Origin: Straminergon stramineum
Taxonomy: Eukaryota; Streptophyta; Bryopsida; Hypnales; Calliergonaceae
Assembly (NCBI GenBank): GCA_963920665.1
Contig: OY987273.1
Location: 15,936,501-16,000,500 of the forward strand
Direction of reading: 5' to 3'
DNA: 64,000 nt
This document shows positions 35,081-63,532 of the stretch, in pieces; position 1 is the first letter of the stretch; each line of letters opens with the position of its first letter. Under the pieces are notes generated by a model that had not been told where the DNA came from, did no database searches, and saw only the letters and a list, made by a program, of their open reading frames with translations. A program made the position numbers and the translations under genes.

Positions 35081-35444
35081 TATGGTTGTTCAATCGAATG
35101 ACTTGACAACATGACGAGCACGATGTCCAACACATGTAATAGACCCCCTTGTTCATCTAATAAAGTCAACTTTAAGGTTGACTTTCAAATAAAGCACTTT
35201 CTATTTTCCAATCATGACATATTTGAGTTTCATTTTATTGAAGTGTCTCAATTTAATAATCACTTATTACATTCTAAATTATGGATCATAAATAAAGGGA
35301 GATTTCAAATTGTCTTTGCTGCTAGGAGAAGGCCTTATGCAACAAAATTGTCTAGGGTATGTGACACTCATCTTATACGACATGCGATGTCAGACAAACA
35401 ACTCAACATCTGAACCCCAAAATGCGTTTGACAAAACAACCCTA
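35081..35444 (+). mobile_element. hAT-type MITE, copy 1 (364 bp)
   Basis: The termini are TATGGTTGTTCAATCGAA at the left and, reversed, TAGGGTTGTTTTGTCAAAC at the right. Perfect 8-bp direct repeats AGCTTGGC flank it at 35073-35080 and 35445-35452. The 8-bp duplication and (C/T)ANGG start are classic for hAT. About 100 bp at each end match the ends of the 20-kb element at 43222-63524, and the whole length matches the MITE at 58781-59142 in the opposite orientation. It is non-coding. Confidence 0.9.
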
Positions 35445-40267: not shown

Positions 40268-40627
40268 CAAGGTTGTCTTGTCGAATATATTTTGGGGTTT
40301 TGGTGTCATATAGGACGTTTGACGTAATGTGTCATATTAGACAAACTGTCGATACCCCGTCACAACCCGTTGTGTAAGTCCATTGTTGACAACTTAGAAA
40401 AATTAAAATCTCACCATAATTATGAACCTAAATTTAGAATGTAATATTTATTCATTAAATTGAGACACTTCATCGAAAGAAAACTTAAATATATCAAAAT
40501 TATAAATTTTTGATGATTTTTTTAAAGTCAACTAGACGTTTGGTCAACTAGACATCTGAAGGGCTATACTAGCTGTCATGTGACGTCTCTTTGTCACAAT
40601 GTCGTGTTGTCCGGGTAGAAAACCATA
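40268..40627 (+). mobile_element. hAT-type MITE, copy 2 (360 bp, diverged)
   Basis: The left end CAAGGTTGTCTTGTCGAATA and, reversed, the right end TATGGTTTTCTACCCGG are family-like. The flanks GTGTTAAT (40260-40267) and GTGTCAAT (40628-40635) are a 7/8 target duplication. The internal order ('ttttggggtt', 'gtgtcatat', 'aaattgagacacttcat', 'aaagtcaac') matches MITE 3 in the same orientation. Confidence 0.8.
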
Positions 40628-43213: not shown

Positions 43214-43221
43214 GTTAGATA
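43214..43221 (+). repeat. Left target-site duplication of the 20-kb element
   Basis: GTTAGATA here is identical to 63525-63532. The identity extends to CTAGTTAGATAC in the wider context, partly by chance overlap with the element ends. Confidence 0.8.
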
Positions 43222-43322
43222 CAAGGTTGTTCCGACGGACAACTCGACAAACATGACGTCCAACACGTCAAGTAGACCCTCTTGTTTGTCTAATAGAGTC
43301 AAACTTAGCTTTGACTTTTAAA
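43222..43322 (+). repeat. Left terminal region of the giant element
   Basis: It aligns with MITE 1 from 35081 and, reversed, MITE 3 from 59142 down: GACGTCCAACAC, AAGTAGACCC(T/C)CTTGT, GTCTAATA(G/A)AGTCAA, TTTGACTTT. Only the first dozen or so bases are mirrored at the right end, as usual for hAT. Confidence 0.8.
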
Positions 43323-43384
43323 AAAATTTCACTGTGCCCGTGAGGCCACCTGGATGCCATGTGGCAGACATGTGTCTTCCACGT

Positions 43385-43837
43385 AGCATCCTAAAGGGGC
43401 GCATGCATGTGTGGGCGACCTCACATTTGGGCAACTACGGGTAGGGCAACTTCGGGTTTAGGCTAGTGGGCTACCGCAGGTGTGGAGTACGTAGCAAGCT
43501 GTGAAGCAAAGAGACAAAGTGAGAACCCGAAGAGAAGTAACACCCCACAATTACCCGTGGTCACCCCCAAAGACTCGTAGTTGCCTCCCAAGGCACCTGC
43601 ACATGCCCCAAAAGACCTGCAGTCCCCCCCCCAAAGGACCTGCACGCGCCCCTGAAACTGCAATCGCCTCGTCTAGGACCCCCAGTCGCCTCCTAAGACC
43701 CAAATGTGCCCTACTAGACCCGTGGTCACTCCTTGAGATCCATGCGCGCCCCTTGGAGACCGCGGGTTCAACCGGTGGTCACCCACTCGCACGCACCCCA
43801 TAACCAACTCTCTCCTGCGCTCGCCCCACCTATTTAT
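43385..43837 (+). promoter_or_regulatory. Motif array and TATA-like box: left end and promoter of the RING gene
   Basis: From 43410 to 43480 the motif faces left (GGCAACTACGGGT, GGCAACTTCGGGT). From 43540 to 43760 it faces right (ACCCGTGGTCACCC, ACTCGTAGTTGCC, ACCCGTGGTCACT). A TATTTAT box lies at 43831-43837, about 192 bp before ATG 44023. The left-facing part may be subterminal transposase-binding sequence and the right-facing part the promoter. Confidence 0.55.
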
Positions 43838-44022
43838 CCACTCGCCCAAGACTTTTTGGGCACCTTTCATTGAGGCTTCTTGTCTTGTATCCTTTAGTGG
43901 CTACATGCGTGAACCTTGAGTATTTACTATTTATTACATTCATCCACCCTTCTTACCTTAGTAGTTGTGGACCACCTAAACTCCCAAACGAGTTTTTTGA
44001 GCCTTACACACGACAATCATTG

Positions 44023-46515
44023 ATGGCCACTGGAGTTAACAATGCTAGGGCATTACCTATCTCTGTTGCTGCACAGACCGCTAGGGCATTACGGAAGGCT
44101 GCCAAAGACAAACATCGCAAGCGTAGGGGCACTATTCATCGGAAGCAATTGCATGTGCTCAATAGTGAAGCCCACCTTGCTTTTAAGGGTTGGAATGAAG
44201 AACCAGAGCCTTGGACAATACAAACCTGCGAAGACTACATCGAGTGGTGCCACATCGGCAAGTTCTTTCCTTTATGGCGTCATCATGATAATCGGCACAC
44301 CAATAAGGCCAACTTGAAGGATTGTGAGAATCCAACATTCCTTCAAAGATGCATTGAATTGTGGCAAGTCCTCTACAAAACCACCTTTGTAGATAGGAAC
44401 GAGGTCCTCCTCTTCCTTGCTAGAGGAGCGTATGCTGAGGTCGCTCTAAACAAAGAGGTTGATTGGAGCACAATCAAGGGAAGCATGTATGTCACTTGTC
44501 CAGAGAGTGGTTTCATCCCAAGAGGAGTTCTAGCCTTTCCCGAGGGGGGACTTGGTCCTATTCAAAGTGCATACAAAATGCAAACCCCTACCACTGAGGT
44601 TGACACTGAGGAGTCTAAAGAAGATGATGACTCTGATGGTACGTGCGTCCATAGGGTCATATGAATCGTGGAGCAATCTATTTGCCCTAGTGAGGTTCAA
44701 AATGAAATTGTAGAAGGACCTGCAACATCCACGGGACAACAACTAAAGCAACCATCTAGAGTACGGCGTTCAACAACACGAGTGGGACCTACATCAATTC
44801 CAACTATAGTTCCTAATCCATCGTTGCCAATATAGCGCAAAAAGGACGTCTTCGACTTCGGGCCCGATGAGGACACAACTATGGAAGAAACTGGCCGTGT
44901 TCCCATTTCTCCATCAACAATGGGCTCGAGCCATGACATTATGACTTTGGCAAAAGCTCTGGACCTCCTCAAGACCAAAGATGTTGAAATTTCTTCACTA
45001 TAGAATGAAATGAGGAAATTGCGATGTGAGTGTGAACACAAAAGTACACTCATCTCTCAACAAACTACAGAACTGCAACGCCTCTATGAGAAAGACCATG
45101 ACACTTTCACTTTGTCGGATATGGATGATGCCTTTGTTGAGCAAAACCTCCAAAATGTGGACAAGGTTGTAGGGGACCTTACCAACCATATCCTTCAACA
45201 TTCTCCTTTTGCCAAGTGCACTAGACGCTCCCCCATCATTCCGAATACACTTCCTACTATTGTCATAAGATATACTACCAATGACACAATTGAACTCAAT
45301 GGGACCCAAGACTCTCTTTCGTTTGCTACGGTTCCATCAATTATTCAATTGGAGAAAGACCATGGACTTCAAGAAGAAAATAAGATGCTTTGAAGAAAGT
45401 TGGCTGAGTTGACTACCACATACTATCATTGGAAGGTCGCTTGCATTCTCTCCATGGATAGATCCCAACAAGTTGTGAAGGAGCTAGAGAAAGTTTCTAG
45501 AAACTTTGTTGCAAATGCTCCTCAATGTGAGAATGGACTAACGTCATGGGCATTGTTAGAGGGCATGTTTCCCAATAACATGTGCATGGTGGAATTGCCA
45601 CAAAAGGAGGTCATAGATTGGAGCAAAAATGGTTGGGACCACGAAAACCAAATGTCTAGCCACATAGAAGAGAAGAAACAAATGCTCTTGTGGCCCAAGC
45701 CTGCACCTTTTGTTTTGGACCATACCAAATGTCCCATATGTCTTGAACAATTTGGCCTCGAAGCAGGTTGGGCACTAGGATCTTGTGCACATGTATACCA
45801 CCCCCAATGTCTCATCGCGCAATACTTGATTAGACAATGTTGTGTGATTTGTTCAGCACCATTCCACGATCGCCTATATACCATGTTCAACTTGACGACC
45901 TACATGCCTCCTTCTTGGGAACACACACATGATACTACGGCTGACACAACCTTGTGGGGCCGAAATTTAGTTTGTAGTTGGCGAGAAGGAAAACATGATC
46001 AAGAAAAAGGACCTGCTAGTTCATAATTGAATTGGGAAACAAACCCAAACGAAATTGCCAGAGTTGCACCGAGGCTCATGGGAAAGGGGCCACAAAACGA
46101 AGGGAGGAGGGCATTCTTCTTCCAATGCCTTGGTGGATATTGGGACAAGACCTCCTCAACCTTCAAGTGGGGTCCTCATCTGCAACAACACTGTTGGAAT
46201 TTAGAAGGACAAAGGGTGGCTAATCAAGATGATAGTGCCTCCCTAGAAGACTTGACTAGTATGGCTTACCTGGACTCTACGTACGGACCATATTACCAAA
46301 GTCAAGCACTTGACTACTTATTGGAAGCACATTCTCCGCAAACAACAAGGATCCTCCAAGCTCTACAGGACTCCAACGTGTTGCAATCAATTTTGAAGGC
46401 AGACAGACCAGCTTCACCAACCCGTGCAAAGCAAAAGCTTGGGGTTGGGGAAGCATCGATCTATGAACAAGGTGAAGGAAGAGGCTCTCAAAACAACCCA
46501 AATGTAATTGACTAG
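44023..46515 (+). pseudogene. CHI-KLFP-module protein with RING-H2 finger (copy P4)
   Basis: This is one frame of 831 codons with five stops (44662, 44833, 45001, 45391 and 46024) and no indel. I chose ATG 44023 (MATGVNNARA) over 43870 because of the ~192-bp TATA spacing. Residues 50-155 carry the module: AFKGWNEEPEPW, CHIGKFFPLWRH, FLQRCIELWQVLY, NKEVDWSTIKG. An acidic linker and a coiled-coil region around 45010-45560 follow. Residues 570-610 (45730-45852) form a RING-H2 finger with CPIC, C-A-H-VY-H-PQ-C and C-VI-C, so all eight zinc ligands are present. RING-H2 proteins usually act as ubiquitin ligases. The last 160 residues are Gln/Ser-rich. It is the first gene of the giant element and convergent with P5. 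Confidence 0.65.
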
Positions 46516-47759
46516 ACATTCGTAGGAATCATGCAATTTAGCCTTACTTCCCATCATAATAGATGAGAAGTAAGGGTTAGGTTTTAGTTACACTATGTTT
46601 CTAGTTGTTTTGGCAAGTATGATGGAGTGGTTTAGGGTTTGCTTTTTTTATTCCACTTCTACGACTTCCCAGCATACCTATGTACGGCAATTCCAAATGG
46701 TATTGACTTTTATTTAATACTACCTTTTTTTCCTCTCTACCAAAGTACCAATTTCTGAAATCATATCGAGAATGATCTTTTCCAGTTCTTCCAAAAATAG
46801 TTTGTATGAATCAAATCAACAAAGCTCCAAAAAGTTGAACTTTCCAAATTAATTTCACTTGCATTGAAAAGAAAACTAGGTCACTACTCACTAGAGTGGA
46901 GCATCATTGTCCAATTGGATATTTCCTTTCATATTCTTTAAAATTGTGAGGTTCTAATTATAGGAAGCTTTTCCTCTAAGCTTTCAAGATACTTGGCCAA
47001 AGAAGGAATAAAAGGCGTTCAAATACAACATGCCCCTTTTCGTGGATGTTGACTTGTTGACTTCACATTACCATACCTTCAAATGGTTCACCCTATCCTT
47101 GGGGGTCAAAATTTTAATTCATAAAAAACATGAGTAGGCCAACTTACATATAAAACCTACTTAATTCCTCAGTATCCATTGTAATTTTCTTCAAATTACG
47201 CTAAAGCTAGAATTCTAAAAAATCCTATATACAAGGAGGAACAATGAAGCAAATCACCTGAGACAAATAAGCCCAATAAATTTCCTCGATTAATATGGTA
47301 TTTTGGGCACAATCGGTTTTAGTTCTCCACTATTCATATGAAAATCATAAATACAAGTTGTACTGTAGATTTCACGAGGATATTCTCACAAAATACTATG
47401 TTGACTTTTATAGTCAAGAATCAAGAATTTCCCATCAATCCCATGTTCCTATTCGATTGTAATTATGTGCGAGAATCCCATTCCATTCATCATACCATCA
47501 CCTTCTCCCAAAACATGAGAAAGACATATTCATCCATATAGAAAAGTTGTAAGATCCCAAAATGGTGTGGCATTTTCTCCCTTCCATGCACGCCACTCGT
47601 GTGCCCACACCAATTTAACTATTCTAGTACACACATTGCTTCAAGACACCATATACATTGTTTTATCTCAAAACATTGCATTTCTTTATAACACCACGAT
47701 AGGCAAAATACAAAATAATCATGGTGAAAGTATTTATCCTCATTGTATTCTTAGGTATT
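46516..47759. other. Spacer between convergent genes P4 and P5
   Basis: AT-rich sequence without recognised genes. It should hold both 3' untranslated regions. Confidence 0.4.
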
Positions 47760-49241
47760 TTATTCTGTGTTGAGGTAGTCCTTCAAAATAGGCTCCGGAC
47801 CCATTTGCTGTAATTCTGCATCAGACTTCCCTATGCTAGTTCTATTCCACTTATACCAATCCAAAGAAAAACGACTTTCTACCCTCAGAGCTTTCAACTC
47901 CGATACCATCAATGGTAATCTTTGCTCATGGAACTTCACCAACTTCTCAAGTGTTGCTACTTCTCCAGCAACACTACCATATGCTAAGGAAAAAGCCAAA
48001 AGCTCTACTTTTGGAACGTGCTGGACAACGGCCTCGTAATATTCTTTTTTCTTCTCCATTATTTGAAGTTCTAGGCTTTGCCTTTCATTTTGTACCTCTT
48101 GACGTTTGCGGACAAGGGTTTCGAGTTTTGATTCCCATATGTAATAATGGTCCATTTTATGCACCTTCCCACTCTTCATTTCCTTCAAATAAAAATCGCG
48201 ATTTCTTTTGAAGGAATGGAAGCCCTTGTCATTCTCTTTGATGACGTTTGTTATGGCCTTCAACTATTGCTTCAACACCTCTACGAAAGTGGGATTCACT
48301 TCTTGCTCCTTCAAATTTTGCAATTGCTCGTTCTTTGCACACAATGCTAATTTTGCACTTTCTATTTTGGCAAGCAACATTGCCTCTTCATGTTCTGAAT
48401 CGCTTCCTCCACCACTCCCATCACCCTCTTGCAAAACAGGGTCCACTTTCCTAGCCACCCCATCATCCATGCCTTCTTCGTTTGTGTCTTGTACTATGAT
48501 GGGCTCTTGGGCTGATTGTCCACTTTGGGCGACTCCCACATCCATAGCTGGCCTAGATTCTTGTATGGCAACCTCCTCGTCATCATTGTGGAATGAATAT
48601 CCATTGTATTCATATGTGTGTTGATCAAAGCTAGAAGTCTCTGACCAAACCACGCTTTCATCACGAACAACTGACTTCCCATGCTTCACCTTGGATAAAA
48701 TCTTCTTTACATCCATAGGTTCATCTGGTGGTAAATTTTTTGTAGTCTCTAGAATGATCACAATAGGGACCTCCTTCAATGTTGACCAATCCACCTCCTT
48801 CTTCAACACATATTCAACATACACCATTCTCACAAGAAAGAAATAGAAATTGTCGTTTCAGTAAGTTGAGTCCTCCAAATACAAGTGCTTCCAAACCTTA
48901 CAACATCTAAGTATGAAGCCCTCGTCTTTGGAGTATGCAAGATTTACTTTGTTTTGCTTTAGATGTTCTTTGTGCCGACACAAGGGAAATAACTTGTTGA
49001 TGTGGCACCAATCTATGTATTTGCAAACTGTTTTGTAACTCCAAGGCTCAGGTTCATTTCTCCAACCTTTAAATGCCTTAATCTTTAGATGGATCAAAAT
49101 GGCCACACGTTTCTTGTGAATTTTACCGCACCGTTTCCGACCCTTATCACAGATGAGCTTCATCTCTTGTCGTGTAAGGTGTTTGATTGTGGCAAGCATC
49201 AATGGTGGAGGCTCATTCTCTATAGTGCTCAATCTATACAA
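47760..49241 (-). pseudogene. CHI-KLFP-module protein with coiled-coil tail (copy P5)
   Basis: A single frame of 494 codons is read from ATG 49241 (MYRLSTIENE), with stops at 48858 and 48264 and no frameshift. Residues 50-145 carry the module: AFKGWRNEPEPW, YIDWCHINKLFPLCRH, RCCKVWKHLYLEDS, VYVEYVLKKEVDWSTLKE. An acidic region follows (residues 190-290), then a Lys/Glu/Leu-rich C-terminal region (LETLVRKRQEVQNERQ and following) that predicts long coiled coil. It is the best-preserved simple member and resembles P1 closely. The module's conserved Trp, Cys, His and Lys residues suggest a folded domain, but I know no matching family and assign no function. Confidence 0.65.
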
Positions 49242-49488
49242 TCAATTGTACTCAGATAATATGCCAAATACACCAAGCCTAAAACCTTGTTGTACAAACT
49301 TAAATCTATTACCTCGTGGTAATTCACATTTACAAATACATCAATATAAACATTTACAATCACAATCAAGTTTCAAACAATTCTGCGTGATTTACAATCA
49401 ATGGATGAAAGTGACATGAGGAGAGATAGAATATCCTCCTCACAACACCCACCTCCCCTCTCAAGCCTACAATTAGCAACTTCTAGGT

Positions 49489-49810
49489 GGATAAAAGACA
49501 AGGCGCAAAAGGGAAAGACGGGAGACTACGGGTTTAGGCTCTGATTTTGTACCTGCAGTTGCCTTAGGGCGAGCGTGGCTCTAGATGGGGCACGTGCGGG
49601 TCCACAGGGGGGGGCTCATGCGAGTCGGGAAGGCAACCGCGGGTCTAGGACCACCGTCAACGACCGCGGGTGATGGCAACTGTGGATCTGGGGCGACCGT
49701 GAGTGAGGGGAATCCCAATTGGGGGCACATGTGGGTTTGGGGCAACCGTGACTCAGGGGAGCGTGCGGGTCTGGGGCAACCACGGGTCCCAAATCCCCAA
49801 CCGTGACGGC
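49489..49810 (-). promoter_or_regulatory. Motif array upstream of P5, minus orientation
   Basis: On the minus strand the array reads ACCCGTGGTTGCC, AGTCACGGTTGCC, ACTCACGGTCGCC and ACCCGCGGTTGCC, that is, toward P5. A TTTTATCC TATA-like word lies at 49489-49496, about 248 bp before ATG 49241. One motif near 49551 faces the other way. Confidence 0.55.
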
Positions 49811-50069
49811 ACATACCTTCACTGAATAGTGAAATTAGATTGCCTTAACAATTAGATTGACTTACCCCCAAATGAACTATGCAAAGAATTCATATTCAAA
49901 CCCAAATGCATGCAAGTAGGTGATGTGTATGTACAATACTCAATATTTTGGGTCCAAACATGCACTTCACATTAAAAATAGTTTATACACTTGCATTGCT
50001 TTTCCAAAATGAGATGCACAAAAGGTGGCCAGCGTTACTATTCCCGCTAGAAAACTATTACATCAAATC

Positions 50070-51767
50070 CTATAAGAAGACAGAGTCCCGAAAGACGAAT
50101 TCGGGTGGTTTCATGAACCATGGTTTACCCATGAGGAGGTCCACCACTTATGCACATGTTGGTCTTCTATTAACATTAGGATCACCTACTTCATGTAACT
50201 TCATGGCAAAGTACCTTGATGACTCATGATTTCTAAATAAGTCCTTGTTGTATTCAACCATGTGTTCTATGTTCATGCGTTGGGTCAACTTTCCAATCGA
50301 ATAAGAATTGGATTTCACCAAATATTTGTAGGTCACTTTCATCACATCTAGACTCGTATCTGAACCCTCTGGCCCAAACAAATAGAACAACTTTGGAGCT
50401 GCCCACCAATGGCCCATCTTCTCAACATCAAGTTTTTCTTGTTTTTCATATCCAAAATGCGAGGGAGATCTTTCTTGAATACGACTTGCAATTCCCCAAT
50501 CACAAATCTCAATGTTGATCTCTTCGTCTGAGAAGGGGGGATAATGCAACAATATGTTCACAGGTAACAATTCACTATGCAACACCTCTGTATTGTGCAC
50601 GAGACTTGTCACATAAACCAGGGCCCACGCCAAATTCGCCTTGTGTCTTCGAAAGAGGCTAATTTCTTTTTGTTGTTGGCCTGTAAGTTGCTTGACCAAC
50701 TTGATTTCATGCCATTCTGCATGTGGCACCACCTTCTCATTCAAATGAAGCAACTCTTTGAAATTACCACCATTCCACCACAAAGTGTATGCTTCCATTG
50801 TTTGGTCATGGAAAACTAGGAATTTAATAATGGCCGGATGATTCAACGGGCATACCAAAGCCTCCACTAACCATTCCACCCTCGCATCGCATTTGTTCCT
50901 TTGCTTTGACAATTTCCCCAGAAAATGTACATGTGCTGGGATCGTGGACATTCCTTCAATGCATACCTTGCGCACCTTTGCATATTCTCCTTGACAGTCA
51001 AATCCAGTAAGTGGGACCACCTTGGCCTTTGAGTGGACCCACATGATACATGAACCACTATCTCTTGTAAATGCAACCTTGAATGCATCCGTCTGCCACC
51101 CCATACCCCTAGCTTCAGACCTTGACAATCTTTTTGCTGCAATTTGCCACCAATCCATCTTCTCACGGAACTCCTAGGCCCTATCCGTTTCTCCAAATCC
51201 AGGCACTATAGGTCACAACTCAAGCATCAACTTGTTGGTGTTGAATATACCAGTTTGTAGGCAATTGCCAATCCACGTTTGCCATTGGTTGAAATACACT
51301 TCATCCACATCTGCATAGTCCGAAGATTCCTTGCATTTCCTTGTAATACATTCGTCCAACTCATCCTTCAAGGATTGGATGCCTGCCTCTTTATTTCTCA
51401 AGTATTTCCTCTCCAAATATTGTACACTTTTTTCCTCATACCATTGGAGACAAGCCTCATGCGCATAGGTCCTATATCGTGTTGGAGGATAGGTAGGGTC
51501 CTTATCGTGTGCTGTCTTGGACTTCTTTGTCTTGGATGGTCTAGCACCCCCAATTACCTCCTTGGTAGTTATATCTACAACAAATGCTACAGGATTATCA
51601 AGGTCCTTGTCCCAAGCCGATATCCAACGTGTACTACTTCCTTCCTTTGAAATAGACATGGTCCTCTTTTGAAAAACAAGGTGTTCTTGACTTGAACTTG
51701 GAGAGAAAAATGGGCAAAAACTTCCCCTTCTGAAATCACCTTGGCCCACGAGCACGCATTTAGCCAC
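50070..51767 (-). pseudogene. Kinase-like protein gene 3 (cargo of the giant element)
   Basis: A single frame of 566 codons with only three or four stops (51213, 51165 and 50148 are clear) and no frameshift. The start is ATG 51767 or the in-frame ATG 51659 (MSISKEGSS), which better fits the array position. The first 200 residues are a family-specific region (WISAWDKDLD, then EKSVQYLERKYL). A glycine-rich-loop equivalent GFDCQGEYAKV is followed by EALVCPLNHPAIIKFL, then LHSELLPVNILLHYP as the catalytic loop, then ICDWGIAS as the DFG equivalent and WAAPKLFYLFGPEGSD as the APE region. Here HSE replaces HxD and APK replaces APE, so this copy may be a pseudokinase even without the stops. The substrate is unknown. 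Confidence 0.65.
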
Positions 51768-51779
51768 TTAAAGGTGGAT

Positions 51780-52060
51780 GTAAGCCAATGCGCAAGACCA
51801 AGAATGGCGACCGCGGGTCTGGGTGACCGCTTAAGTACTCGAGGTCGCCTTGGGGCGCGTGCAGGTCTAGCACATGCGAAACGGGCGACCGCGAGTATGG
51901 GGCGACCACGGGTATGGAGGCGACCGCGGGAGGGGGTGACTACAGGAGGGGGTGACTACGGGTTCCAAAGGTGCTCGCAGATGTAGGCGACCACGGGTTT
52001 TGGGGCGATCGTTGGTGTAGAGGGCGCCCATTGGTGTGGGGGCGACCACGGGTCCAAAAA
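51780..52060 (-). promoter_or_regulatory. Motif array upstream of kinase-like gene 3, minus orientation
   Basis: On the minus strand it reads ACCCGCGGTCGCC, ACTCGCGGTCGCC, and ACCCGTGGTCGCC at least three times, facing the kinase gene. One opposite copy lies at about 51838. Confidence 0.55.
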
Positions 52061-53150
52061 GGATGGACCACCATAAATAATAGCAAAAAGAAACCTTGAT
52101 ATGGGGTAGAAACATTGGCATCACAACTTCCCACTTCTATTTCGCTTGTTTTCAAATAAAATCATAAGACCACTATGATATGGTCTAGAATGTGGAATTA
52201 GATTTTGAGTTGTTCCTTTATGGTTCCAAAAATATGTCTACAATGTTCACAAAGAGAAAAAAAGGAATGGGCCAAAAGGGAAAAAGAGAATCAGAAATAC
52301 AAAAGTACTTGATGTGATTGACTACTATTGAAACAAAAAGGGAGAACTTGAAATACCTACATTCTACCATTGCATAATAATATTATAGAGGTTACTTTAG
52401 AAGTGTCTAAAGTCTTCTTCTAATTTCTTCAAGTTTGCTCTACATTGAACATGAATTCGGCTTTTTCACACAACCCTAAACCCTTTTGGGGTGGAAAAGG
52501 TCATAAATGCAAACATACATGTTGCAGAGCACATTGAAATGAACAACAAATTAAGCGTAAGCACATCAAGTCAAAAGATTGTTGTCTTTGATGAAGACAT
52601 TGTTCAAACCATCAAGGGTGTTTGAATGCTATCATTTCTTTTTTTTGCATGCCAATCCTTCAAAATTGGTCACCCACAACATACAAGAAATTTCTAAATG
52701 GACAAGTGGGACACCCTCGAAATCATCTTTCTTAGACGTTGTAAATTGTTAAGTTACAAATTATAGATGCGGTCTTCGAAAGTAAACTTTCCAAGGAAGA
52801 CCACCCCTTCTTACACTACAAAATTTACAAGATGAAGAGATGCTCTTCTATCCTGTATAGAGAGTTTCTATCATTTATGGACTCAAAATTAGCCACCTGA
52901 TCGTTTAAAGATGAAGAAGCCTCACATGCAAATCCTTATACAATGTACGATTTCTTTGGCTAAGTACTCTATAGAGGACATTCAATATGTTCTTGTAAAA
53001 GCTATCCAAGGTTTACTTAAACTTTTGTATACAAAAAATAATCTCTCTCCAAACAAACAAAATGTCAAGTTCGGTTACTCCGATAGGTGAGCGGGAAACA
53101 TCATTTAATTCCCAAGGTTTCGGAGATGTACTAAGAGGGTTTAGACGGTC
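52061..53150. other. Spacer, nothing recognised
   Basis: AT-rich, short frames only. Confidence 0.35.
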
Positions 53151-53224
53151 AGTACTGAGTTTAGAACGGAGATGTATGAGGTGCAATGTTGCACCACACA
53201 CATCTCCGTTCTAAACTCAATACT
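53151..53224. repeat. 36-bp near-perfect inverted repeat with 2-base loop
   Basis: The arms at 53151-53186 and 53189-53224 match at 33 of 36 positions around a TG loop, and share GAGTTTAGAACGGAGATGT. A transcript would fold into one long hairpin. Confidence 0.85.
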
Positions 53225-53299
53225 AATTTCTTATAACTCTCATAGACCATCCCCTAGACCTTGAGAATGAAATCACCTTCCCTCCCACATACCACATGG

Positions 53300-53450
53300 A
53301 ATTTGCTTGACGTCTTTTTTTTTCTTTTGGTAGGTTGGCTACAAGAACCAAACCAAATTGATCTCATTGGGGATCAAACCCAAGACCTCCACAAGAACAA
53401 TGACTTCCAGGAAGCCAATAACTTCCATGCATCACCCGAAGATGTCTTGA
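53300..53450 (-). repeat. Candidate tRNA-derived SINE, copy 2
   Basis: On the minus strand, TTGGCTTCCTGGAAG (A-box-like) is followed about 36 bp on by GGGTTTGATCCCC (B-box-like). Then comes TTGTAGCCAACCTACC and an A-rich tail (AAAAGAAAAAAAAAG). It shares order and sequence with 9125-9240. Confidence 0.4.
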
Positions 53451-53539
53451 AGACCCCAAGATCCTAATGAAGTGACTTGTTCTTGGATGTTAAAAGTTGA
53501 ACTCATTATATTTATTAAAACTTCTTTGGATTGGAAGGC

Positions 53540-53918
53540 ACCCCCCCACCCGCGGTCGCCCCCTATTCCACCAAATTGGGCTCCACACCACCAAGACAGA
53601 AGACCGTGGCCCCACTTGCGGTTGCCCAAGACCTGAAGTCGCATCCCACCTACAGTCGCCCCCCATTCTACCAAATTGGGCTCGACAACACTAGGACCTA
53701 AAGTTTCCCCCACTCACGGTCGCCCAAATTTCAACTTGCACCCCACCAGTAACTGCCTCTATCATAAAGACACATCAGTTGAGAAACCAATGTAGCAGAA
53801 GTAGTGAGCCACCTCCACCACAAATGAAGTTAGACTTAATAGCGTCATATATACACTAAAACAGACCTATCCTTCAATGTTGGTAGCTAGTTAATACTCT
53901 ACAATCAATCTATAAATA
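53540..53918 (+). promoter_or_regulatory. Orphan motif array with TATA box
   Basis: ACCCGCGGTCGCCCC, ACTTGCGGTTGCCC, ACCTACAGTCGCCCC and ACTCACGGTCGCCC lie in plus orientation at 53546-53730, and a TATAAATA box lies at 53911-53918. No protein gene of the cargo type follows. A 37-codon frame at 53997 is too short to call. The array may belong to a lost gene or a non-coding transcript. Confidence 0.4.
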
Positions 53919-53963
53919 CAGAATTATAGTAAGTCTAATTAGACAAATTGAAGAGGGTTTTCC

Positions 53964-53984
53964 AAACCCTAAACCCTAAACCCT
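53964..53984 (+). repeat. Interstitial telomere-type repeat, three units
   Basis: AAACCCT occurs three times in a row, the plant telomere unit. A telo-box-like AAACCCTAAACCCTAA also lies at about 63405, near the right end of the element. Confidence 0.7.
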
Positions 53985-54277
53985 ATAGAAAAACCATGGA
54001 CCTTCTCCATGTATGCCACCCCAAAAGTAATGTACTTCTATTTTTTAGGGTGGATAAAATGATAAACACATGTGATTTGCTTTTCATTATATGTCATAAA
54101 AAAGTTTGAACTCCTAAACCTTGCACTTGTAAGATATAAACCATTGAAGTTGTCATTTCCTAACTTGTTAATCTTCAATAAATTCAATATTCATTCACCC
54201 CTTCAAATGTGTTTTAAATCCCCTTAATGTATCAAGGGGAAGACTATATTGAAATTCCTATGTTCGAGGATGGAAAA

Positions 54278-54758
54278 TGAAATGATGAGGAGAAGGGCTT
54301 CCCCAAGTCTCCATTTCGTAAACCACTTCTTATGTAGATAAAAAGATTTCTCTTCATGCATCCCACGATTTCAGTATTTTATTTGTACATCGTTTCCCCC
54401 AAAGGGAAGGTCTCCTCCAAATGTACTCCCTCTAAAAATTAAAATAGGAAATGGTCATGTTGAATTTTACATGAGCACGAGGAAAAAAAAATGTCAAGGA
54501 GAAGAGCTTCCCCAAATCTCCATTTTTTAAAACCACTTCTTATGTAGATAAAAAGATTTCTCTTCATGCATCCCACAGTTTCAGTATTTTATTTGTACAT
54601 CATTTCCCCCTACAAAGAAAGGTCTCCTCTAAATGTACTCCCTCCAAAAATTAAAATAGGAAATGGTTACGTTGAATTTTACATGACCACATGGATGGAT
54701 GAAGAAGAAATAAAATGTTAGGAAGAAGGGCTTTTCCAAATCTACACTTCCTAAACCA
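54278..54758 (+). repeat. ~210-bp tandem duplication plus partial third copy
   Basis: TATGTAGATAAAAAGATTTC occurs at 54331 and 54541. Both units include GCTTCCCCAA, GTACTCCCTC and GTTGAATTTTACATGA. A third partial unit starts near 54720. Confidence 0.75.
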
Positions 54759-54924
54759 ATTTTCTTTCTTTCTTACTTAATTAACTTTTGATGACTTAGT
54801 ATTGAATGCCTCAGTCTTAGGATTTTCTGGAGTTAATCCTTAGAAAAGGGGGGAGCAGTATTTGAAATGTTTGAACACCTTCCCTTCAATTTGTAAGGGG
54901 GGAAACTCAAACTCATGTTTTTTG

Positions 54925-55373
54925 GCGCCCCTGACCCGTGGTCGCCCCATACGCAACCGCCCCCATCGTCATGAACTGGAAGACCTTTCTAAATCTGAGA
55001 CTTGCGGTGGCCCCATTACCCACAATCGCCCAAGAAATGACTTGTGGTCGCCCTATATGTAGCTGCCCCTATACCCGCGATCGCCCCATTACCTGTGATC
55101 ACCCAAGAAATGACCTGTGGCCGCCTTATATGCAGCTGCCCCTATACCCGCGGTCGCCCCATTACCTGCGATCACCCAAGAAATGACCTATGGTCGCCCT
55201 ATATGTAGCCACCCCCCTATACCCACGGTCACCTAGCACTTGAGGTCTCCTTCCAGAAACTCTAATTTTTCCTGAATGGTAGTTTTTGGACAGTGGGACC
55301 TAGACCCGTGGTCACCTAAGACCCGCACACCCCCTCTTCTCGTATGCGCCCTAGGCAACTTCGGGTACTTAAG
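54925..55373 (+). promoter_or_regulatory. Motif array upstream of P6, plus orientation
   Basis: More than ten copies of the motif all face P6 (ACCCGTGGTCGCCCC, ACCTGTGATCACCC, ACCCGCGGTCGCCCC, ACCTGCGATCACCC). Part of the array is a local duplication around ACCC(A)AGAAATGACCT. A weak TACTTAAG lies 198-205 bp before ATG 55571. Confidence 0.55.
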
Positions 55374-55570
55374 GGGATACTGGATTCCCAAGTTGCCACT
55401 TCCTTCGTTGCACCGCGCCTTTCATCCGCCTTGAAGCATCTAACTATCGGTTCGTTGGTTGGAAGTTTGGGCACCTACACGTGCTGTGGCTTTCACGTTT
55501 ACGAATTCATTTCTTCGATTATCTTATCGACAAAAGTCTAGTTCTCTTTACGCTAGAGTGACATGACAAG

Positions 55571-57130
55571 ATGACAAAGAAGAAAGGAGATCGCCATAGC
55601 AAGCAACAACGTGACCTTCTTGACCCAGTGGCTAAGGCATATCGGGGATGGCATCATGTAAATTCCGATTGGACCTTGACAACTTGCAAGTTATTTGTGG
55701 ATTGGTGCCATATCGACAAGCTATTCCCTTCCCATCAACTCATTCACCATGTGAAGCAAAACCAAGCAAATTTTCATTACTGCAAGGATGATGCATTTGT
55801 CCAAAGATGTATTGAAGTGTACTGAGCATTGTACAGAAAGCGAAAAATTCCACGGAGCGAAGTTTCAATGGGCATATGCCAAATGGTATATGCAGAGTTA
55901 CAATTGGGGAACATGGTAGATTGAATGACCTTCAAGACATCAAAGAATGTCACGCTTCCAACTACAAAAGACATTCCAAGAGCGGGTCCTTCAAATAATC
56001 CTCGGGATGGGATAGGGCCCAAAAAGAACATTATAGAAGGAGTGGCAGATGAGGATTATGTTTGGTCAACGTCGACTGGAGAATCGGACTCCGATGAAGA
56101 GCCATTGCCTAAACCTAGGGATAGGATGGAAGATACATCAATGGAAGAAAACTTATCGTTGGTGGTATCAAAAGAAGGCAACATGCAACAGACCACACCA
56201 ATGTATGGAGAACCTTTTATGTTTGTGGAACCAATAGGGGTCCGTCATCCTGAAGATGACGAAGTGTTCCATTATGTGCAAGCTCGCTTTTAGGAAATTA
56301 ATGAAGATAGGTTGGATGGGGAGAGTGAAGCCGAAGAAGAGATTCCTTTGACCTTGATGAATTTGCCTTCCATGGAAGGATTGTGTGAAATGGAACAAGA
56401 ACATCAAGGTGTACTTGGAGAAGACAATAATCGGTGAATGAAAGAATCCTATAAAGTGGAGTTGGAGATGCTTTTAAAGGATCTCGAAGAAAAAGAAAAA
56501 GAGTGTGAGATCATCGAGAAGTGGAGCACACAAGAGATTCAAGTTGAGGATGTGGGCACCCTCAAAGAACTAATTCAAGCTGGACAAACTCGTTTTGCAG
56601 CCCAACAAAGAGAAATGGAACAACTGGAACAATTTTACCTCAAGTTCAATAAGGGAGAAGATAGAGGATCCAATTCAAATGTCAATCATGTTATGGATGA
56701 ACGGCTTCAAACAATAATGGAAAAATGTAGGATGGAAGAAAACAACCTTGCCATTGAAAAAGGAGGTGTGAAAAAGGCAAGATCGACATTGAACTACTTG
56801 AAGGAGATGAAGGATGCAGATCCTATTGACTGTTCGTTGCAGTTGGATTCATTGTCTGTGGATGTTGAAGATTTGTCATCCACTACGGAAATAAAGAAGT
56901 TGAAGATGAAGTTAGCTTCTGTGAAAAGATTGGAACAGAAGTTGGAGGAAAAGTTGTCATGGCCAAAGGCACACATCAAGTTCATGTCATTGTTCAAGAA
57001 GTGGTGGATCCAAAATAAGATGTGGAACCATGACTTGACTCTTTTGAAGAGAGAAGAGAGAGTGGCAAGAGCCCAAATAGAACTAGAAAAGAAGGAAAGG
57101 GAAGAACAAGGGGAAATGGATGGAGTATAA
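55571..57130 (+). pseudogene. CHI-KLFP-module protein with long coiled coil (copy P6)
   Basis: ATG 55571 opens MTKKKGDRHS. The upstream ATG 55563 meets a stop at once. One frame of 520 codons with stops at 55823, 55920, 56291 and 56435, without frameshift. Two of the stops fall where paralogues have Trp: the RCIEVY-stop site and the DW of VDWST. The module is at residues 20-120 (AYRGWHHVNSDW, VDWCHIDKLFPSHQ, FVQRCIEVY). An acidic region follows (residues 160-280), then about 220 residues of Glu/Lys/Leu-rich sequence (56438-57130) that predicts coiled coil. It is upstream of and co-oriented with the transposase. The function is unknown; a structural or oligomerising role is possible. Confidence 0.6.
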
Positions 57131-58010
57131 ATTAGGTGGCTCTTGTTTCTTTTATGACTATGTACTTCTTCCAAGATATATGAAGAAAAAGGTTTTGTCC
57201 TTATTTTTGTTGAAATACAAGAATGTTTATTTTTATTTTTTGTGTATGAAAATGTGATTGCATTTGGATCCAAAGTTTCAAACATTTGAATTTTTGACAA
57301 ATTTTGATGATTTCAAGGTATGTGAATGTTAATTTCTTGCAAAATTTGTGTAGTGTTTTAAAAAAAAAAAAGAATTCTAGTAACTTTGAGTCTACACAAA
57401 GAACCCTCAATAAATTTAAGTTTCATCATCGATGAGAGTTTCAATATAAGTTCATATGGTTGTATTTTTCTATATTTTAACATATGGTTTAAACATATCG
57501 TAAATGACAACATCCCCATGCCCTTCAACCCGTGAATGTATGGACTCTTCTTGAGATTTATAATTTGGGAAAAAACATCATAAAAAGGTACTCAAAAGAA
57601 TACTTTTGGAATTGATAGAGAAATGGAAGTTATACATTTTGAGTTGTGGATTCCATGTATATGGTTTGATCAACCAATGTTGTCCCCCATTTTTCTTTTT
57701 AATTTGAAAAAGAAAGTTCTTAATTTTTTCCAAATTTGAGTACAAGATAATTCTATTTATTTTTTATTAAGTTTGTTGGAATGGATTTGAAATGAGTTTC
57801 CCTTCATGTGGTAGTTTAAAAGAAATTGTATTCTTTAAGTCTATGACCATTTTCCATAAAATCTTTTTTTGAAGTATCTATAAATACCACGTCAAACCCT
57901 TGGAGAGCGTTTAGGGTTTAATAAAATATCTATCTAGACTAGGATGACTTTCATCTAGAAACTTAGCGATGGAACACTAATGGGATAACAAAAATGGCCT
58001 TGGATTCTAA
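57131..58010. other. AT-rich spacer between P6 and the transposase promoter
   Basis: It holds a 12-base A run at about 57360 and no gene. Confidence 0.4.
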
Positions 58011-58014
58011 GCGT

Positions 58015-58343
58015 AAGCGTGGTCACCCTTCAAGTACCCGAAGTCGCCTCCTAAGACCTGCAGTCGCCCTTCAAGTACTTGAAGTTGCCTCCTGAGACCT
58101 GCGGTCACCCCCCCTTCTACTCGAAGGCCCCCCCCCTAGACCTACAGTCGTCCTACCGTGGACCCACAGTCGCCCCCCTTGGACCTGCAATGGCCCTTTG
58201 ATCCGCATGCGCGCTCCTAGTGCAAACCGTCGACCCGCATTCGCCCACGGGGCGAGTGCGCCTATTACGAGGTCACCTGTTTCCTGCACCCATTCTCGCT
58301 CTCAATGGGCGACTTGTGGTGCTAGCAAGATTGCAGTATAAAG
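58015..58343 (+). promoter_or_regulatory. Motif array and TATA box of the transposase gene
   Basis: ACCCGAAGTCGCC, ACCTGCAGTCGCCC, ACCTGCGGTCACCC and ACCCACAGTCGCCCC face the transposase. A TATAAAG box lies at 58337-58343, 231 bp before ATG 58568. Confidence 0.55.
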
Positions 58344-58567
58344 TTGAAGGCCCAAACTTTGGTTTTCACCTTGCTTCGGGGATGAACTCATGGCTTGAAT
58401 CTTTGAAAGAGGCTTCTTGCGGATGTTTGGTTCTTTGGAGGGCAACGACTTGGTTTGAGTGGTTTAAAAGACCGTTCAAAGCAAGTGGCTTTGCCATTCT
58501 TTTTTCTAAATCAAGGCTCTGATTCATATGATAATATGGTTTGAAGAACAAATAGGCGAGGAACAAT

Positions 58568-61500
58568 ATGGCTGGTCAGGGTGAGGGGAGGAGGACTACC
58601 ATTAACGATACAAGGAGAGCCACGAAGGAGTGGGACCCTTGGTTGGTTATAGATATTGACTGTCAATTTGCGGGAAACACACGATTATGTGTTTTCTATG
58701 GGTGGACCTCTGTGTTTGTATGAAAGCAGGCATTCTGTCACTTTGGATTTGGCGGCAGGAATGCATCAGAGCGATGTAAGCAGGGTTGTTCTGTCGAACA
58801 CATTTTGGGGTTGGGTGTCGAGTTGTTCGTCTGATATCACGTGTCATACAAGACGAGTGTCGTGTATATATGACAATTTTGACGAATAAAGCCTTATCCT
58901 AACAGCAGAGATAATTTGAAATCTCATTTTATTTATGATCCATAATTAAGAATGGAATAAGTGATTATTAAATTGAGACACTTCAATAAAATGAAACTCA
59001 AATATGTCAAGATTGGAAATAGAAAGTGTTTTATTTGAAAGTCAACCTTAAAGTTGACTTTATTAGACGGACAAGGGGGTCTACTTGATGTGTTGGACGT
59101 CGTGTTCGTCGTGTTGTCGAGTTGTTCGGCCGAACAACCATGGATGTAAGAAAATCCCATGGGTAGTATTGGAAAAGTTTAGGACTTGTCGTCGAGTTGT
59201 TCCGAAGGAAATGAGCTTTGAACAAATGCATGAGGAGGTTCCAAAATTTGATGTTGTAGATGAGATTGTGGTAGAGCCTATGTTAGAGGGGGGTAGGGAG
59301 AGGTCAGAGGAGCCTAGTGCTACGAATGAACCAATGCTCCCTATTACCGATTCAATAGATTCTACTTCTCAAACAATTTTGAGAAGGAGGAATAACCCTT
59401 CCATTTCTAGGCAAACTAGCATGGATGAGGCATCACAAAGTAGCACGAGAGCAAAGTTGGATACCATGTGGGCTTCCTTTTTTTATGAGGCTAGCATCGC
59501 GTTCAATGTTGCAAGCCATCCTGCCTTTGTGAAAGTAGTGAAAGAGACAGCGGCATCAGGACTACGATACCAACCGCCCTCATACAATGCTTTGTGTACA
59601 AGAATGATAGAGCCAAAGAAGGAAAGTGTTTCTAAAATGGTCACTGAGTGGACAAAGCACTGTATTGAAGTTTACGGAGCGACTATTTGTTTGGATGGTT
59701 GGTCTGATACTAATAGCCGTCCATTATTGAATTTAATCCTTGTATGTCCTACGGAGGATGTGTTTCTTAGATCGGTGGACACTACGGGGGAGAAGAAGGA
59801 CATTGCATACACAACCAATATGATGGTGCAATACATAGAAGAGGTTGGCCCCAAAAACATTGTCCAACTATGTACGGACAATGCCGCTATCATGATGGGG
59901 ACTTTGAAGGCGTTATAAGAGAAATATCCTCACATGTATACCCAAGGATGCGCAGCACACATTTTGGACTTGCTTTTGGAAGAGTGGGCAAAGGATGTCA
60001 AGGTGAAGAGAATAGTACAATGTTGTACGTAGATAGTAAAGTACATCAAGAGGTACCATTCCACATTGGCTCTCTTCCGAAAGTACTCCCCGGACAAGGC
60101 ATTGCAAATGCCTTCTCAAACACGCTTTGCAGTGAACTTCCTCATGATATCACGTGTGGTGGAGTGCAAGTCAACATTGATTCAAGTGATAATGGATGAG
60201 ACATATGTGCAATTTGAGGCTAGTTTGGAATGTTGCCAAAATGGAGATATATTGGAAGCGCGAGCCACTATAGCGCGGAATGACATTCATGTGAAATCTT
60301 TTTAGGTGGAGTGTGATAATTTTTTGCACATGGTGGAGCCCGTCCTTATTGCTCTCCAAGTGTTTGATGGGAAAGCCTAGGGAGTGCCTAAAGCTTGGTT
60401 GGTTATGAAGACTCTTCAAGAGCATGTGTGAAGCTTGAGAAACGAACCTTTTTTTCTAAATGATGAAACTGCGATAAACTTTGAGAAGCATCTCGAGACT
60501 CATTGGAAATTGATGCTCACAGACCTTCACTATGCAGGGGCACTCGTAAATCCTTTCTTGATTGAAGTAGGAACCCTTCATAACGACGGTGTAGCCAAAA
60601 GAGCCTTAAATCCGGTGCTTCGAAAAATGAGCGAGTCATTGGGATTATCATACATGGAGGCATTGTAGGAGCTCACATAGTTCAAAGAGAAGATAGGCCC
60701 TTTTGACCCCTTAGAAGAGGCTCTTGATATTACACAATGTAAACTAATGCCTCACCAATGGTAGAATCTTGTGGGTGCTAATGTTCTTCCAAAAATTGCA
60801 ATGAGAGTTCTATCTTTGACATGTTCAGCATCATCATGTGAAAGGAATTGGAGCATGTATTCGTTTGTGCACAATGAAGTGCAAAATTGCCTAACCACAT
60901 CCAAGGCGGAAGCATTGGTGTATATCTACACCAACAATAAACTTGAACGTGAGAAACGTGGACGCAATCCTTCAATGTTCTACGAAAAGTACCTTGAAGA
61001 TGGAAATACCTTGGAAGAGAATGAGGAGCCATTAGGTACAGGATCATCAGGGGATGGCGACCTAGCCAGAATGGCTTAAGCTAATGAGAATGTTAGGTTG
61101 GCAGAAGAGCGCCTACGTGAAAATATTTGGGCAGAATTGATTCATAGAGAAAAGAGTCCTCTACGGAGACACAACTATGGAAATACATTTACAACTGAGA
61201 ATAATATGTACTACTTTGAGGAGGAGGAGGTTCAACGTGCACCGCGAAGGCCCTCGCAACCCTATGTCTCTGCTAGGGATAGGAATGTACCTCCTCCAAT
61301 AAATTCATCGCCGACAAGGGCAAGTAGTCTCGACAACCCCAATGAAGGCATAAATAGTCCAATGCCCACAAGAGCTGAGGAAACAAGATCTCCAAATGTT
61401 GTAGATCAGGGTTCTACAAGGATAATGAACCTATAAAGTGCAACTCGAGTTGCTGAGGTAAATGAAAGGCAAGCGGAGGCAACACCGCCAACACACGTCG

Positions 61501-62216
61501 AAAATGTTGTGCATACAAGCGTTCCACTTTCTCCATTATGGAGCCCCTTAAGAACAAAAAATGTGGAATATGATTTAGACTTGCCTTTGCAAGCTGTTTT
61601 GAATCAGAATCGTACGGTGCCCTTAAGTGGAGGAAGAAACACAAACAATGCTAGGGCAACTAGGTCTATACCAACCCGTGCAACTAGGCCACCCTTGCAT
61701 AATAGTCCTCTTAGGGCAGTTGATAATAAAGTCCATGCCTCAATTCCGCAACCCACTCAACCCTCCTCAATTTTTGGCCCTGGAGAATCATCCTTGCTTG
61801 TGTGTGAAGGCACAAGAAGACAGAAAAAGCGATTGAAGAAGACGTAGGAGAGGCTGCAAAGAAATCCCAAATGACAAAACCATGTTGTCCAAAGATTCAT
61901 CATGGGTGAAGCCAATTCCAATCGAAACATCGAGCAATCTAGTAGAGGCGGACGACACCCTGCATCCAACCTTGATGGAACAAGAGATGCATTGAGGTTG
62001 ACTAAACGATTGGTGCAAACTAGCAGCGATGGCGTCGTGGATAGTGAAGTGCGGAACGTGAACTCAGAGGTAGAACATGAAGTGCAAAATGAACGAGTAC
62101 AAAGGGAGGACAACGAGAATGATAACTGTGATGATAATGAAAGGGTCGAGGAGTCGGATGATGATTTTGACCCTGACGCTGATGAGGTGCCAAGTGATTA
62201 CACATTTTCATCGTAA
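58568..62216 (+). pseudogene. hAT transposase of the giant element, split by a nested MITE
   Basis: After removing the MITE and one 8-bp duplication (370 bp), ATG 58568 to the stop at 62216 is one frame of 1,093 codons without indels. Residues 20-80 form a BED-like finger region (EWDPW, CVFY with Tyr for the second Cys, then CKKIPW across the insertion). The DUF659-like core follows: PSYNALCTRM, TICLDGWSD (first Asp), LCTDNAA (second Asp). The middle has MVEPVLIALQVFDGK and THWKLMLTDLHYAGALVNPFL. The dimerisation region at 60770-60960 has LTCSASSCERNWSMYSFVHNEV. A tail of about 380 residues, disordered and Ser/Pro/Arg then Asp/Glu-rich, ends in DADEVPSDYTFSS. Around a dozen stops (58721, 59916 and 60303 among them) inactivate it. 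It would have moved the element and its MITEs. Confidence 0.8.
58781..59142 (-). mobile_element. hAT-type MITE, copy 3, nested in the transposase (362 bp)
   Basis: The ends are CAGGGTTGTTCTGTCGAAC and, reversed, CATGGTTGTTCGGCCGAAC. Perfect 8-bp repeats GATGTAAG lie at 58773-58780 and 59143-59150. It is opposite in orientation to MITE 1. It interrupts the zinc-finger region, and excision in silico restores the frame. Confidence 0.92.
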
Positions 62217-63075
62217 TTTTATAAATATAGATTTAGAGGTAGTGAAGTGGTAATGTAATGCTTTTGCATAATTTTGGTGTGTTGAAGTTTTCTAGCTTAA
62301 GTTCATAGGCAAATAGCTTATAGATGAGTTTTGTGTAGTATCTACTTTAGTATGAAAGCATGATAGTGTTAGAATTACAAAGTTTTGTTCATTGTCTTTA
62401 GTATAGACTTCTACAGGTATAGACGTGGAGATCTTAACAAAGTTCATGGAAGTACAATTGAAGTAGAAGTTCATTTATAAGATTGGGTCACTACTCTATT
62501 AGTGTATATAACTTATAATTACAGTAATACTAATTATCCTTACTTTTTTCTTGTTTTTGTATCTATTTTTGGTGTAATTATTATATCCAATTGTGATATT
62601 GGCTTCTACACTTCAATAGGAGTAGAAAATTTGAATTAGAAATTCCCAACCATATGTAATAAAAAAATGTAGAACTCGGAGGCTCCTATGAATGAGTGAA
62701 TGACCACAGAATGTGAAGTACTTAATTTAAGGCTTAGGAGAATGCAATGGCACATGGAAACTGAAGGATCCTAAATCGTGAGCAAGATTGAAATGGTCGT
62801 TATATCCATGTTTGCAATTGCAACGGCACACAAGGTTGCTCTTAACCTTTTACGGATGGACTAGTAAGTATGAAAATCATCTCCAATGGAACTATGTGAT
62901 GTGATGTACTTGCCTTTCCCCTCACAAAAATACTCATTTCCGGTATGAGGACTCAATAAGATCTCTCTTTTGGGACCCAATTTTCAAAGATGGACAATTG
63001 CATTTATGTCGTATATTAGAAGTTCTTATCATCTACGAAACAAAAGAAATTCCTTGCGTGTGGGATAAAGCGAAG
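62217..63075. other. AT-rich 3' flank of the transposase
   Basis: No gene recognised. Confidence 0.4.
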
Positions 63076-63079
63076 ATCG

Positions 63080-63325
63080 CCCTTTTCCTTACACCTGCGG
63101 TCACCTTTATACCCTTAGTCGCCCTAGGTTGGACCCGTAGTTGCCCTAGATTTTGGACCCATACTTGCCCTCATTCTAGGACCCACGATCACCCCACCGT
63201 ACTTGCAGTCGCCTTGGGTTGGTCGCAGTCGCCCTAGGTTGGATCCACAGTTGCCCTCATTCTAGGACCCGCGGTCGCCCCACCTTACCTACACACACCC
63301 CACCCACAGTCGCCCATAGTGACGT
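63080..63325 (+). promoter_or_regulatory. Right subterminal motif array, facing outward
   Basis: About nine motif copies (ACCTGCGGTCACC, ACCCGTAGTTGCCC, ACCCGCGGTCGCCCC and others) spaced roughly 20-25 bp apart point toward the right end. No gene follows inside the element. With the left-facing copies at 43410-43480 they form an inverted pair at the two ends, as expected of subterminal transposase-binding arrays. Confidence 0.5.
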
Positions 63326-63412
63326 GGTCAAAGCTTTCTACGTCACTGTTGACAACCCGCCACGTAAGATAAAAATTTTGGCTGCCTTGCTCAAAAACCC
63401 TAAACCCTAATT

Positions 63413-63524
63413 TTGCGCTCGTCAAATTTGTCTCATATATGTGACACTCATCTTATTCGACATGCAACATCAGACGAACAACTCGACACCCAAACCCCAA
63501 AACATGTTCGACAAAACAGCCCTA
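63413..63524 (-). repeat. Right terminal region of the giant element
   Basis: Reversed, it aligns with the right end of MITE 1 and the left end of MITE 3: TTTTGGGGTTTGGGTGTCGAG, GTTGTTCGTCTGAT, AAGATGAGTGTCACATA. Confidence 0.8.
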
Positions 63525-63532
63525 GTTAGATA
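63525..63532 (+). repeat. Right target-site duplication of the 20-kb element
   Basis: GTTAGATA, identical to 43214-43221. Confidence 0.8.

Follow-up and report, generated by a model that had tools for sequence, protein, structure and literature searches.

The stretch of DNA analysed here, 64,000 nucleotides of the moss Straminergon stramineum (assembly GCA_963920665.1, contig OY987273.1; hereafter the window), contains at positions 43222–63524 a giant hAT element of 20,303 bp, flanked by a perfect 8-bp target-site duplication (TSD), GTTAGATA. hAT elements are textbook small, usually one-gene, cut-and-paste transposons. The original prediction, made from the sequence alone, had described a giant hAT with four extra genes at this position, on the strength of identical 8-bp flanks, end sequences matching a local family of miniature inverted-repeat transposable elements (MITEs) over about 100 bp on each side, and an hAT transposase near the right end. 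Each of these points was recovered, and three further full copies with perfect 8-bp TSDs of their own bear the reading out. The probable mobile unit runs from the left end through a W/RING gene, a W gene, a kinase-like gene, a second W gene and the hAT transposase gene to the right end, 'W domain' being the name used here for a conserved N-terminal region of gene 1 that is also found in genes 2 and 4. The features of the element are the following, with the strand in brackets.

43214..43221 (.): left TSD GTTAGATA, read from the sequence
43222..43330 (+): left end (CAAGGTTGTT...), homologous to MITE left ends
43429..43830 (+): GC-rich tract of CCCGCGGTCGCCCC-like repeats, between the left end and gene 1
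44023..46512 (+): gene 1, a frame of 830 codons with 5 in-frame stops, encoding a W domain, a coiled coil and a RING finger
47763..49199 (-): gene 2, encoding a W domain and a coiled coil; over 491 codons from 49235 it has 2 in-frame stops
49400..49800 (-): GC-rich tract upstream of gene 2
50076..51659 (-): gene 3, protein-kinase-like, 528 codons with 3 in-frame stops; the catalytic-loop Asp is replaced in the window copy
51800..52066 (-): GC-rich tract upstream of gene 3
53545..53750 (+): extra GC-rich tract, not directly followed by a gene
54930..55340 (+): GC-rich tract upstream of gene 4
55568..57127 (+): gene 4, encoding a W domain and a coiled coil; over 523 codons from 55559 it has 5 in-frame stops
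58020..58300 (+): GC-rich tract upstream of the transposase gene
58568..62213 (+): gene 5, hAT transposase (DUF659, Dimer_Tnp_hAT, long C-terminal tail), split by MITE3
58781..59142 (-): MITE3, nested within gene 5, in its 5' part; TSD GATGTAAG at 58773–58780 and 59143–59150
63065..63330 (+): GC-rich tract just inside the right end
63417..63524 (+): right end (...AACAGCCCTA), homologous to MITE right ends
63525..63532 (.): right TSD GTTAGATA, read from the sequence

Ends, genes and tracts of the element

Both ends, each of about 90–100 bp, are oriented relative to the MITE ends as expected of a single element. Over 89 bp the left end is 83% identical to MITE3 and 76% identical to MITE1, and the right end matches MITEs at 82% over 98 bp and 81% over 94 bp (BLAST; E values for left and right ends from 7e-16 to 2e-21); MITE2 is matched by the right end only (72% over 64 bp, E 5e-7). 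The terminal inverted repeat of the window copy is imperfect (8 of 14 positions, counted by hand). Across the complete copies described below, the tips are short inverted repeats, reading CA(A/T/G)GGTTGTT on the left and, inverted, TAGGG or CAGGG on the right. The identity of the flanks extends to CTAGTTAGATAC, which takes in bases of the element itself, CTA being the right tip and C the left tip. A blind scan of the window found 35,431 identical 8-mer pairs at a spacing of 10–40 kb, so an 8-bp match carries little weight in such a scan, which alone would not pick the element out; the TSD is compelling because both tips are fixed by their homology to the MITEs.

Two further MITEs of the same end family lie outside the element, their tips and TSDs having been read by hand.

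35081..35444 (+): MITE1, TSD AGCTTGGC
40268..40627 (-): MITE2, TSD GTGTTAAT/GTGTCAAT

The duplications of MITE3 and MITE1 are perfect over 8 bp, and that of MITE2 agrees at 7 of 8 bases. End profiles were made from four left and four right ends (those of the element and MITE1–3), which match by construction; at E below 0.01, their search of the window returned no left or right end beyond MITE1, MITE2, MITE3 and the two tips of the element, and inside the element no inner ends except those of MITE3. The 12-bp subterminal motif shared by the element ends and MITE3, GTCGAGTTGTTC, also occurs exactly at 59191–59202, within the transposase coding region, some 40 bp away from where MITE3 inserted; if up to one mismatch is allowed, the window holds 5 matches to it, 0.15 being expected.

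The five reading frames are continuous except for nonsense codons and, in gene 5, MITE3, and they include the longest open reading frames (ORFs) of the window. Gene 5 matches the Pfam families DUF659 (3.2e-25) and Dimer_Tnp_hAT (3.6e-7), the domains of an hAT transposase. The Pkinase match of gene 3 has an E value of 7.4e-8, and the RING match of gene 1 (best E 4.8e-6) falls slightly below the Pfam curated cut-off; the long tails of genes 2 and 4 are probably coiled coil, as judged by eye. The four extra genes of the original prediction are thus a W/RING gene, two W genes and a kinase-like gene, each a continuous frame. Twelve ORFs of the element were scanned against Pfam, and among these there was no integrase, recombinase or polymerase gene of the Maverick/Polinton, Starship or similar kinds.

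Each gene holds 2–12 in-frame stops, against 35 to 64 expected of a random frame; those of gene 5 number 12 in 1013 codons from 59175, plus one before MITE3. Stop density is alike over the five genes (27 in 3385 codons, chi-square 3.7, p 0.44), as expected if they had arrived together. The difference in in-frame stops between copies inside and outside the element is weak (kinase p 0.06; hAT p 0.44). Where an N-terminal BED-type zinc finger would be expected, the coding sequence of gene 5, as read by eye, is interrupted by MITE3 and a stop. Owing to its nonsense codons and the MITE3 insertion, the window copy is dead.

GC-rich tracts recur through the element. Their motif, CYYRYRRTYRCC, has 39 matches in the element and 2 in the remaining window (0.4 expected inside), an enrichment that is post hoc, as the motif was composed by eye from the element's own tracts; in an unbiased ranking of 8-mers, GGGCGACC and AAAAGAAA, with their complements, come jointly first (12 versus 2). 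Sense-strand matches lie 158–630 bp upstream of all five genes, with one antisense match each before genes 1 and 2. The copies on contigs C10 and C2 hold 26 and 44 matches inside, versus 1 and 0 in flanks of about 9.6 and 9.8 kb, and the 200 kb flanking the window contain 8. The tracts may be shared regulatory DNA, of promoter or enhancer type. In the spacer of genes 3 and 4, the segments 53052–53323 and 54272–54762 hold an inverted repeat and a tandem duplication of about 210 bp; the number of 210-bp units seems to differ among copies.

Further copies in the moss genome

The host assembly (326 Mb in 59 contigs, with the window at C11:15936501-16000500) was searched for related copies. Plant-type telomere-like repeats, together with the soil-crust relative of gene 1 described below, point weakly to a moss as the host. 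Genome-wide counts are lower bounds, resting on the best 40 of 666 left-end candidates, 40 of 225 places matching gene 3 DNA and 79 of 811 matching a related kinase protein. Twenty left ends (of the 39 besides the window copy, mostly the closest) and three full copies were chosen for reading by similarity, not randomly. The full copies are as follows.

C10, from 13223192: 21,137 bp, TSD TAAGTATT on both sides; genes 1–5 in the same order and orientation
C2 (minus strand): 20,887 bp, TSD TTGATCAC on both sides; genes 1–5 in the same order and orientation
C1: 22,351 bp, TSD TTCTCAAC on both sides; without gene 2 and most of gene 3

The pairs of ends 15–25 kb apart with 8-bp duplications that the original prediction had proposed to look for were thus found, 20.9–22.4 kb apart, and the same genes recur collinearly between them in two of the three further copies, the third having an internal deletion. 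All four complete copies, including that of the window, have a perfect 8-bp TSD of their own (GTTAGATA, TAAGTATT, TTGATCAC and TTCTCAAC), as is typical of hATs, and three of the four have genes 1–5 in identical order and orientation. With sizes of 20.3–22.4 kb and five genes in three of four copies, they depart from the small single-gene form that is usual for hATs and does not define them. In the C1 copy, about 5.6 kb of other DNA, part of it resembling the tracts, lies between genes 3 and 4. The C10 and C2 copies are both broken, with 11, 4, 4, 5 and 13 stops (C10) and 3, 2, 2, 3 and 5 stops (C2) in genes 1–5.

None of the 20 left ends read looks like a MITE, since none has a right end within about 640 bp, and in 19 of them the match continues into the interior beyond the end; the exception, L027, is an end-only match accompanied by a second, MITE-like left end. 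Flanking 8-mers were readable at 18 of the 20, and all 18 differ. The 40 scored places matching gene 3 DNA (including the window copy) are full length at 95% identity or more, and nearly all of the 79 scored kinase protein matches are near full length. Left ends and kinase copies were paired using these 79 places and two from the gene 3 DNA search (the window's own and one on C5), leaving out one gene 3 DNA place on C10, the strand of which precluded pairing. Among the 40 scored left ends, no fewer than 13 (or 12 of 39 if the window copy is set aside) have a kinase copy 8.0–9.0 kb inward, in opposite orientation; within 30 kb, such a copy is present on the inner side of 16, and a kinase copy of any kind on the outer side of 1.

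It is therefore very probable that the window element belongs to a high-copy family of giant five-gene hAT transposons, of about 20–22 kb, that are mobile as a unit. The hAT transposase would bind the terminal and subterminal repeats and move the whole unit by cut-and-paste, and the small MITEs with the same ends would be its non-autonomous derivatives. The GC-rich tracts would act as promoter or enhancer DNA common to all genes.

Role and origin of the extra genes

The W/RING, W and kinase-like proteins may be accessory proteins of the element, whose likeliest targets would be the transposase or host silencing, by way of ubiquitination and phosphorylation; that they function as such accessory factors is the least certain step and is put forward tentatively. 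Also short of an even chance is the view that the element is a well-preserved member of an old lineage of complex hATs. In this view, the W/RING, W and kinase-like genes belong to the core of the element, have been passed down together with the transposase in many plant (probably moss) species and serve to overcome host silencing or to control transposition, so that hATs would have evolved a virus-like multi-gene lifestyle. The case for the extra genes serving the element is built on their recurrence, the shared tracts and the uninterrupted relatives, not on the test of selection described below.

Protein searches over about 5.8 billion proteins gave 54 relatives of the kinase, 15 of the W domain and 16 of the C-terminal part of gene 1; among these last 16, the W-domain profile is present in 12 (one partial) and the RING pattern in 12. 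As a conserved domain, the W domain appears not to have been described so far. A relative of gene 1 is also encoded on a 4.9-kb contig, CADCWO010000051.1, from a soil-crust assembly labelled as an uncultured Synechococcales cyanobacterium. As the contig carries an open frame of the plant W/RING family, it is probably plant contamination in a cyanobacterial assembly. Just upstream of this gene, at 1434–1750, lies a GC-rich tandem tract of a motif other than the element's; a search of the 4.9 kb returned neither element end and no match to the element's tract motif.

Several observations weigh against the readings set out above. The ends, TSDs, common gene content and order, the many differently flanked copies and the death of the window copy are read directly from the DNA, and movement itself was not observed. 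The 626 left-end candidates beyond the scored 40, which are those most like the window element, may be mostly MITEs. In the window copy, gene 3 has lost the usual catalytic aspartate, reading HSELLPVN where relatives have HNDLSPVN, and the W domain matched no Pfam family, no PDB sequence (best E 1.7) and no PDB fold. One of the four complete copies, C1, reached its site, or survives there, without gene 2 and most of gene 3. The ratio of nonsynonymous to synonymous substitution (dN/dS, NG86) among the window copy, C10 and C2 is 0.37–0.69, and neutral simulation gives about 0.6; it used the observed substitution spectrum of noncoding columns, from which poorly aligned ones had been removed, a step that reduces their divergence. 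The value of one of the ten comparisons was reached in 2 of 200 simulations, that of another in 12 and those of the remaining eight in at least 30. These three copies are mainly decaying, their dN/dS fitting neutral decay, and selection on the extra genes during spread is not demonstrated, because the ratio is not clearly below the neutral value.

The last two of these observations favour the extra genes being host-gene passengers with no role in the life of the element. Against this stand uninterrupted predicted proteins related to genes 1 and 3 at 33–92% identity (the highest, P0070, being 92% identical to gene 1) and the 814-codon open frame of the gene 1 relative on the soil-crust contig (1879–4320). 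In addition, 24 of the 79 scored kinase copies are stop-free in the aligned stretch, and a second, older cluster of decayed hAT, RING, W and kinase pieces lies within about 14 kb, 46–60 kb before the window (L017–L018). Passenger status is accordingly judged unlikely, while keeping appreciable weight.

A different origin for the unit would be a macrotransposon, in which two separate hATs flanking host genes moved jointly and the composite then multiplied. Macrotransposons of the Ac/Ds type in maize, with sizes of 28 kb and as much as 100 kb, are described as moving, and they can leave an 8-bp footprint (PMC9910405, PMC3260210); on that evidence, size alone is no bar to hAT movement, and such an event could be how the family first arose. 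The likeness extends to tens of kilobases being moved by an hAT system that makes 8-bp duplications, whereas Ac/Ds macrotransposons are composites of two elements, and in the family described here no inner ends were found (at E below 0.01, apart from those of MITE3) and the gene set recurs. The recurrence of the five-gene unit in other copies makes it one element today, whatever its birth, and the same upstream tract is common to all five genes. A macrotransposon is thus a very unlikely account of the family.

Least probable by far is stepwise nesting, in which unrelated transposons inserted into a typical one-gene hAT and brought the other genes: one nested element is real (MITE3), the neighbourhood is full of decayed W, kinase and hAT relics, and the structural scan for nested elements is weak (it requires a 6-base tip to be exact, failed to find MITE3 and gave only seven chance-like pairs with 5–7-bp duplications), but the same genes occupy the same places in C10 and C2 with different flanks, stop density is uniform over the five genes, and no long direct-repeat pair resembling long terminal repeats was seen inside the element. 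Copies C10 and C2 refute nesting as an account of the family. Of insertions with their own ends and duplications, which the original prediction had named as the observation that would overturn it, MITE3 is the one that was found; it is missing from all three other full copies read (C10, C2 and C1), which thereby show its empty site.

Surroundings, known systems and significance

Older, diverged copies of the same gene types lie elsewhere in the window.

10185–11701 and 36427–37905: kinase copies
138–674, 28745–29293 and 33241–33618: W copies
13144–14646, 22578–23111 and 23690–24363: hAT copies

The cluster 46–60 kb before the window may be what is left of an older giant element from a related family. 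At 15–18 kb after the window (L004), a right end (the left end was not found), a tract match and the inverted C-terminal part of a related transposase are perhaps the pieces of a truncated second giant element. Together the surroundings suggest older related giant elements, the ends of which were not found. Elsewhere in the window, the stretches 3919–7991 and 24799–27897 have several DNA blocks in common, at up to 86–88% identity, and an ORF at 4184–4696, with no Pfam match, lies within one of these two stretches.

Like members of the hAT superfamily (Ac/Ds, Tam3 and Tol2 type), the family has 8-bp TSDs, short imperfect inverted tips, DUF659 and hAT dimerisation domains, and MITEs with common ends; unlike them, it measures 20–22 kb and carries five genes. 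Gulliver of Chlamydomonas, an element of about 12 kb with 8-bp duplications, is likewise long, the likeness lying in length and duplications. Mavericks/Polintons, Starships, Teratorn and Terminons are also large, multi-gene and mobile, and use transposition enzymes other than that of hATs. A term search of the accessible text of a 2019 review of giant transposons (PMC6431247) found no occurrence of the whole word hAT, and literature searches found no multi-gene hAT family like this one. Tol1 and Tol2 are given as 4.4 and 4.7 kb (PMC10175614) and Ac as 4.6 kb (PMC3260210), and gene capture is called rare in hATs (PMC3260210). Pack-TYPE elements, which are described as non-autonomous with captured gene fragments (PMC8903248), and gene-carrying Ds elements (PMC3260210) likewise have non-transposase coding DNA between hAT ends. 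The element described here differs from the Pack-TYPE form in having a transposase gene (broken in the window copy) and full-length extra genes with uninterrupted relatives.

The family indicates that large multi-gene elements can be sustained by hAT machinery, as they are by other enzymes in Starships and Mavericks. The existence of stop-free copies of at least the kinase gene makes it testable whether such genes help a transposon to escape silencing. For genome annotation, the RING and kinase genes of the family are likely to be taken for host genes.

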